A stretch of 64,000 bases of DNA from Levilactobacillus bambusae (GTDB lineage: Bacteria; Bacillota; Bacilli; Lactobacillales; Lactobacillaceae), in assembly GCF_003124125.1 (NCBI RefSeq), contig NZ_QCXQ01000002.1, forward strand, positions 328,747-392,746, read 5' to 3'. The position numbers and the translations under genes are program-made. Positions 31,381 to 55,780 of this stretch are shown here, in pieces; the first letter of the stretch is position 1, and each line of letters opens with the position of its first letter. The notes beneath the pieces were generated by a model. It saw only the letters and a program-made list of their open reading frames with translations. It did no database searches and was not told the DNA's origin.

Positions 31381-31382
31381 CC

Positions 31383-31427
31383 AAAAAGGTGCCCAATCAA
31401 GCATATGCTTGATTGGGCACCTTTTTT
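31383..31427 (+). terminator. Terminator of the ElaA-like gene
   Basis: A long perfect palindrome (AAAAAGGTGCCCAATCAAGC and its complement) is centred on ATAT and ends in a T tract. The lower stem is the same as in the terminator at 47995-48041. Confidence 0.92.
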
Positions 31428-31435
31428 ATTAGTTA

Positions 31436-31547
31436 GGTTCCAAGCCTCAACTCTTTCCGGTTAACCCAAGCAGCAAATAATACTAAAGCCCAGTATTTTT
31501 TGCTGCTTACGTTAATCCTCGAGAGTTAACGAGGCTTTCCACACCCT
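31436..31547 (-). repeat. R1 structured module, copy c
   Basis: Read on the minus strand it starts AGGGTGTGGAA, then arm AAGCCTC, AACTCT, GAGGATTAACG, an inner hairpin (GCAGCAAA...ATACTGGGCTTTAGTAT...TTTGCTGC), GGTTAACC, AGAGTT, GAGGCTT, and GGAACC. The arms pair with each other and differ from the other copies. Its first ~22 bases are the last codons and stop of the acetyltransferase at 31526-32062. Confidence 0.85.
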
Positions 31548-32062
31548 AGCCCTATTAAATCATAGGCCAGCCGCAGATCATCCGGATGGTGATTCATTTG
31601 AACGATCCCACAGTAGGTAAATCCCGCTTTTAAAATAATATGCTGCATCCGTCGATTCATCTCATGTGTATCAATCCGCACCGTCTTAAATCCAAGGCGA
31701 ACGGCCTCCGAGACCAGTAGCGCAAAGAAGAAATCAGCTAAATGCAGGCCGTGGAACTCCCCCGAAATCGCAATTCGGTGGATAACAGCGTAGGGTCCGT
31801 CAGAATGCCACCGGCCCTCAATATTCTCATAGTTGGGGTCTGGTTGCTGCATTAATGCAGCGGTACCTGCAACGTGTCCGTCAACGACTAAAACATAGCT
31901 GATACCGGCCTGTTGATCCCGTTCCAACTGTTGGCGGTCTGGATGACCATCCTGCCACTGCGGGCTGCCATCACGTTTTAATAGTGCCTTCGCTTCATTA
32001 ATAATAGCCATTTGGGTTGGTAAATCATCTGACGTGGCTAACCGACAGTAAATTGATGCCAT
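31526..32062 (-). CDS. GNAT-family acetyltransferase
   Basis: This 178-aa acetyltransferase has AVIHRIAISGEFHGLHLADFF as the acetyl-CoA region (shown across residues about 95-115) and a downstream FKTVRIDTHEMNRRM. The start shares one base (TAATG) with the SDR stop, so the two are coupled. The last residues (LGCGKPR) and the stop are encoded by the R1 module, so the natural C-terminus may have been altered. Substrate unknown. Confidence 0.83.
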   Translation of the reverse strand: MASIYCRLATSDDLPTQMAIINEAKALLKRDGSPQWQDGHPDRQQLERDQQAGISYVLVVDGHVAGTAALMQQPDPNYENIEGRWHSDGPYAVIHRIAISGEFHGLHLADFFFALLVSEAVRLGFKTVRIDTHEMNRRMQHIILKAGFTYCGIVQMNHHPDDLRLAYDLIGLGCGKPR

Positions 32063-49431: not shown

Positions 49432-50223
49432 ATGCCGCCATACTTGGTTTTTTCAGATATTGATGATACGTTACTCGTTCGGCAGCACGAAGTTACCCCG
49501 TTCACGAAGGCCGCGGTTGACCGATTGAACGGCCGCAACGTCCAGTTTTATGTGGCGACCGGACGTTTCTATCCGCTTGCGCAACATGTCGCCGACCAAT
49601 TTCAGTCCCCCGTGCGAGTTCTCTGTTCCAACGGAGCAGTCTATCAGCTCGGTAATCAGCTAATCACCCACGAAATTCCCAGCGAAACCGTTCGGCAGGT
49701 GTTGGCACTCATACCTAATTCTCGGTGCCGACTCTTTTTCTTCTCCGTCACGACCCTCTACTATACGGGTCAGGAACCACCCTACGCTGATCAAGCCAAC
49801 ATCATCCGCCTTTCTTCGCTGCACACGGTTCCGGTCACCCACATGATCCCCGCCATGCAAACGGGGATTACGAACGGTGTTATTACGGGCGACCCCATGG
49901 ATTTAAAGGCCCTCGCAACTCAAATAAGACTGACAACGAACCTGCACCTATCGAGTTCCGGCGATCATAACCTGGAACTCATTCCAAACGGAATCGACAA
50001 AGGCACCGCCGTAAAGGCCATTCAAAAAGCCACCCGCATTGACGCTGCGCATACGTTTGCTTTCGGAGATGGGTTAAATGATTTGGGGATGTTTCAGGCC
50101 GCCGATCTCAGTGTCGCCGTTGCCAACGCCAAACCAGAAGTCAAAGCCGCCGCGAAGTTCATTGCCCCCGCCGTTACTGAGAACGGGCTAGCTAAGTTTC
50201 TGCTTAACTATTTTCATCTATAG
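49432..50223 (+). CDS. Cof-type HAD-superfamily phosphatase
   Basis: This 263-aa enzyme has motif I VFSDIDDTLL (nucleophile Asp), motif II YVATGR, motif III Lys in NGIDKGTAVKAI, and motif IV FGDGLNDLGMF, the Cof/type IIB HAD pattern. It dephosphorylates sugar phosphates or nucleotides; substrate unknown. An AAGGAGGG site precedes the ATG. Its TAG stop leads directly into the R1 tandem. Confidence 0.9.
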   Translation: MPPYLVFSDIDDTLLVRQHEVTPFTKAAVDRLNGRNVQFYVATGRFYPLAQHVADQFQSPVRVLCSNGAVYQLGNQLITHEIPSETVRQVLALIPNSRCRLFFFSVTTLYYTGQEPPYADQANIIRLSSLHTVPVTHMIPAMQTGITNGVITGDPMDLKALATQIRLTTNLHLSSSGDHNLELIPNGIDKGTAVKAIQKATRIDAAHTFAFGDGLNDLGMFQAADLSVAVANAKPEVKAAAKFIAPAVTENGLAKFLLNYFHL

Positions 50224-50341
50224 GGTGTGGAACTTCTCGCTTACTTTCGAGGATTAACGGGGCACCCCAAAAATACTGGGTTTTAGTATTATTGGGGTGC
50301 TTGGTTAACCGCAGAAAGTTGAGAAGTGGAACCCGACTAAA
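50222..50341 (+). repeat. R1 structured module, copy a
   Basis: It begins inside the stop codon of the HAD gene. AGGGTGTGGAA, arm CTTCTC, ACTTTC, GAGGATTAACG, inner hairpin (GCACCCCAA...ATACTGGGTTTTAGTAT...TTGGGGTGC), GGTTAACCGC, GAAAGT, GAGAAG, GTGGAACCCGACTAA. All arms pair. Confidence 0.85.
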
Positions 50342-50461
50342 AGGGTGTGGAATCACTCGGGAGATCTTGAGGAATAACGTAAGAAACAAAATATGCTGGG
50401 TTTTAGCATAATTTGTTTCTTGGGTTATCCGCAGAGAGCTGAGTGACGGAACCCGACTAAA
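50342..50461 (+). repeat. R1 structured module, copy b
   Basis: This is an exact 120-bp tandem partner of copy a. Same unpaired blocks, different arms: TCACTC/GAGTGA, GAATAAC/GTTATC, GAAACAAA/TTTGTTTC, and ATGCT-GGGTTTT-AGCAT at the tip. It ends GGAACCCGACTAA. Confidence 0.85.
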
Positions 50462-50518
50462 TAAGGCCAATGACCAATCCGATCAAAATAGAATCGGACC
50501 TGATCATTGACCTCATTT
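50461..50518 (+). terminator. Hairpin closing the R1 tandem
   Basis: AAATAAGGCCAATGA pairs with TCATTGACCTCATTTT, with an inner TCCGAT/ATCGGA stem. The junction CCGACTAAATAAG is identical to that in R2 copy b. The remaining 50 nt to the next gene hold nothing I can name. Confidence 0.7.
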
Positions 50519-50570
50519 TGCATGGGCATAATGGCTCACATTTCATCTTATTAATTGCGCTCTATTATCA

Positions 50571-55157: not shown

Positions 55158-55196
55158 AAATAAGACCGATGACCAGATTTGGTCATCGGTCTCATT
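55158..55196 (-). terminator. Strong hairpin downstream of R1 copy d
   Basis: AATGAGACCGATGACC pairs with GGTCATCGGTCTTATT around AAATCT (minus-strand reading). It lies after R1d in the same order as the hairpin at 50461, so it probably terminates the PH-domain gene's transcript. Confidence 0.7.
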
Positions 55197-55220
55197 AGAT
55201 GTTGGGGTGGATTTAGCTAG

Positions 55221-55333
55221 GTCCCACCTTTCCACTCCCAGCGGTTAACTCTGTCATCGAATAATGCCCAAGACCAGCATTTTCCGATGCCTCAGTTAAT
55301 CCTCCAGATCTACCCGAACGGTTCCACACCCTC
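55221..55333 (-). repeat. R1 structured module, copy d (divergent)
   Basis: On the minus strand it starts right after the PH-gene stop: GAGGGTGTGGAACC, then GAGGATTAAC, a hairpin (CATCG...ATGCTGGTCTTGGGCAT...CGATG), GTTAACCGC, and GTGGAA. The conserved head, GGATTAAC/GTTAACCGC blocks and tip loop identify it; the outer arm is less perfect than in copies a-c. Confidence 0.7.
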
Positions 55334-55335
55334 AT

Positions 55336-55707
55336 TCACAAAATTTTTCCCGCCAAACGACGTTCTAATTCGGCTAGTGGGCCGCCATTATCAAGTTGAA
55401 TCATTTCGGGTTCGGTCTGGCCCGATGTCCAGATTCGGAGAACACCTTCAAACTCAAAGTGGCCCGCCGTTTCAAGGCTGAACTTTGTGACGGCATAGTA
55501 CGGAATGCTCCGGTACTCCACTTTTTTTCCCGTTCCCTGCCGGTTGGTCAACAACACACGTTTGTTCGTTAACACAAACCAATCACGAATGGTTTTCATG
55601 GCAAACTCAACCTCTTCGCCCGGAATAAGAAGCGGAGCCAAGTCTTGCTGCGCCTTTTCTGGGTTAGCGGATGAGGCGTTCCCAATAATACTGTTAAACA
55701 ATCCCAA
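55336..55707 (-). CDS. Small bacterial PH-domain protein
   Basis: This 123-aa cytoplasmic protein has the bPH_1 pattern LLIPGEEVEFAMKTIRDWFVL, TNKRVLLTN, YRSIPYYAVTKFSLETAG and FEGVLRIW. It is usually annotated as a PH or YvbH-like protein; function unknown. The TTG at 55707 has GGGGAG 6 nt upstream. Confidence 0.83.
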   Translation of the reverse strand: MGLFNSIIGNASSANPEKAQQDLAPLLIPGEEVEFAMKTIRDWFVLTNKRVLLTNRQGTGKKVEYRSIPYYAVTKFSLETAGHFEFEGVLRIWTSGQTEPEMIQLDNGGPLAELERRLAGKIL

Positions 55708-55780
55708 TGCGATCTCCCCTTTTGGTCCCATTATACGCAAGTCATTCGGTAAAAATCATAACGTTTCCCTAAGTTTTCGA

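Follow-up and report, generated by a model that had tools for sequence, protein, structure and literature searches.

R1, a dispersed, covarying hairpin at gene 3' ends in Levilactobacillus bambusae and other Bacilli, as the probable core of a mobile 3'-UTR cassette

A 64,000-nt stretch of Levilactobacillus bambusae DNA (the window) carries modules of about 120 nt, here called R1, whose arms differ from copy to copy and still pair. What keeps them complementary: selection on an RNA structure, as an earlier note on this DNA had proposed, or mere repetition of DNA? The note had placed four copies in the window, two of them in tandem on the plus strand and two on the minus strand, and all four are confirmed there, together with the following genes and hairpins.

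50222..50341, plus strand: R1 copy a, imperfect hairpin of about 120 nt (model R2 match 50220-50341, 121.9 bits)
50342..50461, plus strand: R1 copy b, in tandem with copy a at a 120-bp period (found by BLAST and model R1)
31436..31547, minus strand: R1 copy c (model R2 match 31428-31549, 116.0 bits)
55221..55333, minus strand: R1 copy d (model R2 match 55212-55334, 85.6 bits)
50463..50520, plus strand: terminator-like hairpin 3' of array a-b, read from the sequence; repeated in the same genome
31381..31427, minus strand: terminator-like, strong inverted repeat flanked by runs of A and T, 3' of copy c
55160..55193, minus strand: terminator-like hairpin 3' of copy d, read from the sequence
49432..50223, plus strand: 263-aa gene whose stop codon abuts array a-b
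31526..32062, minus strand: 178-aa gene whose reading frame ends within copy c
55336..55740, minus strand: 134-aa gene whose stop codon adjoins copy d

The outer, middle and tip arm pairs that the note had named are all present. Its claim that the same unpaired blocks run through the four copies does not hold to the letter: copy b has GAGGAATAAC and GTTATCC, copy c GTTAACCGG and CTGGGC.., and copy d CTGGTCTTGGG and GGGACC. Against dinucleotide shuffles, copies a, b and c folded with z-scores of -7.7, -8.0 and -6.9, and none of 200 shuffles did as well in each case. Copy d folded more weakly (z -2.4; 2 of 200 shuffles as good) and, with 85.6 bits against 121.9 for copy a and 116.0 for copy c, is indeed the most diverged. 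Copy b does not appear in the window list of model R2, an omission probably due to its overlap with the copy a match. All three arrays in the window have a co-oriented gene before them and a terminator-like inverted repeat after them, the one at 31381..31427 lying between convergent genes. The TAG stop codon of the 263-aa gene (50221-50223) is completed by the AG of copy a. Within its own genome R1 is part of larger composites, at loci such as L002-L010, L029 and L030: a second repeated hairpin (type GACCARRTYCGATC..AAAATACAATCG; 50463-50520 in the window) stands near R1 in 10 of 30 partly overlapping loci, and a CCGAAAG hairpin does so in 3.

Read from its foot, the hairpin begins with a terminal stem of 2-4 pairs, GGGT/ACCC in L. 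bambusae and GTGY/RCAC in many relatives, above which lies a loop, often with GGA opposite GGA. A variable stem of 6-8 pairs follows and ends in C-G and then G·U; next come a one-sided TTAG-type bulge beside the conserved G·U, a variable stem of 5-7 pairs, a GA-rich loop, and then GC, a bulged A and TTAAC/GTTAA-type pairs. The top is a long variable stem with a GGTTTT-like loop. Double changes were found in 22 of 41 pairs among 22 copies of L. bambusae, in 30 of 39 among 38 copies, and in 38 of 39 among 147 distinct copies across families (150 rows minus three identical ones). In the 38-copy set 97.4% of cells were paired, against at most 46.2% when slid; for the 147 copies, whose alignment was fitted to the covariance model and hence leans towards it, the values were 94.8% and at most 46.7%. 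One core pair, CG in 23 and GC in 13 of the 38 copies, splits the relatives from L. bambusae. Among the 5688 cells of the 147 copies G·U far exceeds A·C (482 vs 62), and therefore the strand as given is the folding strand; one G·U pair is retained in 130 of the 147. A conservation of 80% was reached by 17 of 45 unpaired columns and by 12 of 78 paired ones, and mean identity in unpaired and stem columns was 0.71 vs 0.60 in alignment A4 and 0.88 vs 0.78 in A5; the conservation of the loops is relative to the stems, not absolute. Tandem downstream partners often keep the core and the 3' arm, with a 5' arm that is different or decayed (L059-L061, L063, L065, L078, L315, L317 and L322).

That the family is dispersed, as the note had said, is borne out far beyond four copies. 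In the 1.97-Mb genome (39 contigs), BLAST with copy a gave 63 matches and covariance model R1, built from 22 copies of this genome, gave 72 at E<=1; some are partial in both sets, and many lie in tandem at about 120 bp. Given these genome-wide numbers, the family is not a product of chance. Model R1 also had matches in 33 of the 59 genomes of a search among relatives (L. bambusae included), 32 of them among the 36 of the genus. Model R2, built from 38 copies, matched 166 of 301 genomes of the family, in 24 of 40 genera; 57 of 295 genomes of the order, 37 of which lie outside the family; and 7 of 299 genomes of the class. Enterococcus faecalis is one of the carriers in other families of the order. 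Three of the seven genomes in the class lie outside the order and represent two further families, and one copy of each, when folded, had the same architecture. Since few candidates per genome passed the first-look filter to be scored in the large sweeps (60 for the relatives, 11 for the family, 12 for the order, 11 for the class), these counts are lower bounds, and a miss is no proof of absence. Fuller scoring of three other genomes gave 46, 95 and 115 matches. Four genomes of the genus (G016, G022, G025 and G006) yielded no copy with model R1; G006 is 72% complete, and G016 gave no match with model R2 either. A pattern scan of named genomes returned at least 116 stretches, and most of the 80 listed fell in unrelated phyla. 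On those 80 loci cmsearch at E<=0.1 found 31 matches; two lie in one Paucilactobacillus locus and the others in Levilactobacillus.

The note had not recognised the family, and Rfam 15 at the gathering score gave no match in the window or in 20 loci of other genomes; at E<=10 there were two sub-threshold matches in the window, neither convincing. Covariance-model searching, on the other side, brought in many further homologues with compensatory changes. Many compensated homologues, no Rfam match and strand-specific folding thus support selection on a single-stranded fold.

The position and orientation of R1 relative to genes were examined in 98 arrays from three genomes, taken from the best-scoring listed copies (of 46, 95 and 115 matches); 119 of 147 matches were used, weak, partial and opposite-strand rows being omitted, and genes were placed with a purpose-written ORF caller. 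A gene 3' end adjoins 95 of the 98 arrays, and a divergent promoter region holds the other 3. The upstream gene is co-oriented in 81 arrays. In 64 the array starts between -45 and +20 nt from the co-oriented stop, and in 51 between -5 and +7, whereas an intergenic null for stop abutment gives 3.7%, an approximate figure computed from non-coding positions alone. In the 14 arrays at a distance of -4, the gene stops at the TAG of the element itself in 13 cases and at a TAA in the remaining one. Between tandem gene pairs 39 arrays lie in sense and 14 in antisense (p = 8e-4). If coordinate 1 is taken as the origin and the halfway point as the terminus, lagging-strand genes carry 6 sense arrays and 1 antisense array, and arrays between convergent pairs divide into 22 leading and 20 lagging; it follows that the gene, not the replication fork, sets the orientation. 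This gene-sense, fork-independent orientation points to RNA as the folded strand. The note's claim of selection on RNA structure therefore stands as far as a single-stranded fold is concerned, and RNA rather than single-stranded DNA is what the orientation suggests.

Within 110 nt downstream of the 64 stop-abutting arrays, a terminator-like hairpin was found in 31 (2 in shuffled sequence) at a cut-off of -12 kcal/mol and in 33 (5 shuffled) at -8 kcal/mol. Among sense arrays that start 21-200 nt past the stop, 5 of 10 lie behind a terminator. Antisense copies score about as well as sense copies (median bits 102 vs 104, 94 vs 95 and 77 vs 79 in the three genomes), which a purely cis-acting RNA role would not predict. 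R1 itself was rejected as an intrinsic terminator: the copies inspected end in ..CCCGACTAA or ..CACGTTTC, without a direct T run, and a T run, where present, follows a separate hairpin downstream of R1.

Does the fold persist when a copy stays in one place? Among 35 congeners the 263-aa gene had two matches at 29% identity and nothing closer, and the 134-aa gene had no match at E<=1e-8. Since two of the three upstream genes in the window thus have no close orthologues in the genus, an L. brevis gene was used for the empty-site test, one that we take, by eye from its sequence, to be aldo/keto-reductase-like. It has 27 orthologues in the genus at E<1e-150. R1 follows the stop codon in 13 of them and is absent from 14, as judged on 230 nt 3' of the stop. 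Two of the 13 filled sites lack the inner hairpin and one is decayed, leaving 10 intact copies in 10 species. In these 10, both sides have changed in 26 of 41 pairs and 99.0% of cells remain paired; among unpaired columns 20 of 38 do not vary, among paired ones 28 of 82, and the GGA loop has turned into paired bases in two copies. The L. brevis copy resembles its orthologues in two species (0.93 and 0.92) more than it does any paralogue among the 35 sampled (at most 0.85), and gene conversion is therefore not needed at this site. Among the orthologues the distance from stop to R1 ranges from an overlap to a spacer of 6 nt, so that abutment need not mean exact insertion at the stop. With 14 of 27 sites empty and 3 of 13 filled ones deleted or decayed, the host can evidently do without R1 there.

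Signs of movement are seen as well. Of 35 copies sampled in L. brevis, 23 at different sites belong to a single cluster with links at 90% identity or more, which suggests, from their sequence similarity, a recent spread. A linker and a terminator hairpin beyond R1 are common to 19 of the 23. This unit of hairpin plus terminator hairpin measures 168-171 bp in L. brevis (8 copies) and 170 bp in E. faecalis (2 copies). Candidate terminal inverted repeats match at 13 of 16 positions in three of the 8 L. brevis units (0 of 300 shuffles each), at 8-12 of 16 in the other five (1 to 87 of 300 shuffles), and at 9-10 of 16 in the two E. faecalis units (25 and 4 of 300). No consistent target duplication was found in the 20 of 23 cluster copies with a right end, where flanks matched over 1.25 nt on average against 1.02 nt for shuffled flanks; a single cluster copy has a 9-nt flank match. 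Several arrays close with an incomplete further copy of which the 5' part is present. R1 copies with longer common flanks occur at the L. brevis loci L282, L283 and L286, and the flanks of L283 carry inverted ends of the type GCCAAATATGGG..CCCATATTTGGC. A REP-associated tyrosine transposase (RAYT) was rejected as mobiliser: the Y1 transposase domain PF01797 is absent from the L. bambusae genome, and 5 of 14 control genomes have it. The note's phrase "rather than mere DNA repetition" is to be qualified: selection on the fold is supported, and the module is a mobile DNA repeat as well.

Several known systems resemble R1 in part. EFAR elements are reportedly palindromic repeats of enterococci described by De Gregorio in 2009. 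Efa-1/EFAR elements share with R1 the host E. faecalis, an interspersed intergenic position and many copies. According to the cited parts of PMC2267715, Efa-1 of E. faecalis is 163 bp long, has 65 copies and is predicted to form a pair of adjacent stem-loops; the R1 unit measures 170 bp and likewise consists of two adjacent stem-loops. EFAR is counted among the MITEs in the cited section of PMC3733652. In the portions of this literature drawn on here, the elements are published for enterococci and an order-wide spread is not described, nor are in-place compensation, strand asymmetry and stop-codon abutment, which are features of R1. Likened by host, size and description rather than by sequence, Efa-1/EFAR is very probably the enterococcal branch of the R1 family. 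In titles and abstracts, our search found no paper on such an element in lactobacilli.

The E. faecalis record NZ_CP143580.1 (747 kb) matches the unit wholly or partly at 15 places, one of which is scored by model R2. It is labelled as a plasmid; with nhaC, pcp, murQ, dapF and a superoxide dismutase gene, it resembles a chromosome fragment. The E. faecalis loci L403 and L405 are 170-bp two-hairpin units. One E. faecalis unit lies directly after a TAG stop and ends in a terminator hairpin with a T run, occupying almost precisely the space between two convergent genes. Complete or partial matches to an E. faecalis unit occur in 71 plasmid records, 59 of Enterococcus and 6 of Lactiplantibacillus. 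BLAST of L. bambusae, L. brevis-type, other-family and other-Bacilli copies gave no match in plasmids and none in phages, and a pattern scan of viral contigs gave none. Two PLSDB records, NZ_CP151545.1 (labelled P. aeruginosa) and OL539428.1 (labelled E. coli), carry an E. faecalis-type unit at 92-95% identity, beside which OL539428.1 has predicted efrA and efrB genes; both are possibly enterococcal DNA in mislabelled or mis-assembled records.

REP and GTAG REP sequences with their RAYT are, like R1, high-copy palindromes, and in the cited section of PMC3733652 the ends of GTAG REPs can supply TAG stop codons. R1 differs in its length (120 nt, not 20-40 bp), in a 5' end that is not GTAG/CGTC-tagged, in its other motifs and in the lack of a Y1 transposase in the L. 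bambusae genome. Bacterial MITEs include RUP, NEMIS, Bcr1 and Nezha, as given in the same section (PMC3733652). The MITE size of 70-300 bp, the lack of coding capacity and, in some L. brevis units, imperfect candidate terminal inverted repeats also apply to R1; in contrast to MITEs, however, it has no consistent target duplication and a specific fold that evolves by compensation. BOX elements of the pneumococcus are modular, repeated and hairpin-forming as R1 is, and probably differ in sequence and architecture. The middle of the R1 hairpin has a loose resemblance to the integron attC motif. Inspection by eye found no defining feature of a group II intron, retron, ribozyme, kink-turn or attC site.

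The best explanation, in our view, is that the R1 hairpin is under structural selection and forms the structured core of a mobile, non-autonomous 3'-UTR cassette; we give this reading a probability of roughly 0.55. It builds on the computed fold, folding strand, dispersal, compensation, sense placement at 3' ends and, at one site, in-place evolution; from these we infer transcription, a role at the RNA level and a recognising factor. The cassette would land at the 3' end of a gene, be transcribed as the 3' UTR of the gene it abuts, and often supply the stop codon and the terminator. A putative factor would recognise the hairpin through its more conserved loop positions, and would stabilise or process the 3' end, or copy the element.

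The leading alternative is a purely selfish MITE, in which the fold would be needed for mobilisation alone: a transposase or reverse transcriptase acting in trans would recognise the hairpin, either in single-stranded DNA or in an RNA intermediate, and gene 3' ends would merely tolerate insertions. The 23 similar L. brevis copies at different sites agree with it, as do the imperfect candidate inverted repeats at the ends of L. brevis and E. faecalis units, the presence at 13 and absence at 14 of 27 orthologous sites, antisense copies folded as well as sense ones, and the low number of arrays in divergent promoter regions (3 of 98). Compensation that continues at a fixed orthologous site is, however, unexpected of dead copies; the sense bias tracks the gene, stop abutment reaches 64 of 98 against the approximate intergenic null of 3.7%, the L. 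bambusae genome has no Y1 transposase, and the L. brevis copies show no consistent target duplication. We regard a purely selfish element as rather unlikely. Next to the reading in which a mobile element spreads a useful 3'-UTR RNA, it is nevertheless one of the two leading ones, and both can be partly true.

Two further explanations were weighed. A single-strand DNA site, comparable to attC or to the ends of IS200/IS605 and REP elements and acting on the lagging-strand template, would account for a strand-specific fold with conserved unpaired bases, for tandem arrays, and for a 5' TAG usable as a stop codon, as in the GTAG REPs of the cited section of PMC3733652. Such a site should follow the replication fork, of which the orientation of R1 is independent (22 vs 20 between convergent pairs); its length of 120 nt instead of 20-40 bp and the absence of a Y1 transposase from the L. 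bambusae genome tell against it as well, and we think it very improbable. Quasi-palindrome correction, in which template switching during replication rewrites one arm from the other, could produce covariation without selection. Stem blocks do differ wholesale between copies, few cells are unpaired (1% among the orthologues), and the GGA loop that became paired in two orthologues is what rewriting would do. The same process would tend to erase internal loops and G·U pairs, whereas unpaired columns are more conserved than stems, one G·U persists in 130 of 147 copies, and wobble is strand-asymmetric at 482 vs 62. Of all the readings we find this one the least probable.

If the cassette reading is extended, R1 may be one class of 3'-UTR RNA that reaches beyond the Lactobacillales, its loops read by a single conserved putative factor, and thus a global post-transcriptional network spread by transposition; we put this forward tentatively and think it on the whole doubtful. 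If this is true, the network would be made up of the tens of hairpins in each genome and would protect or process 3' ends close to the stop codon. It is common to regard structured repeats at the ends of genes as debris peculiar to one species. In the present case a single fold has been traced from the window to 24 of 40 sampled genera of its family, and on to enterococci and a few other Bacilli, with up to 115 matches per genome. The covariance model can be used by annotators, and the family offers a testable case of a mobile element that would distribute a functional 3'-UTR RNA.
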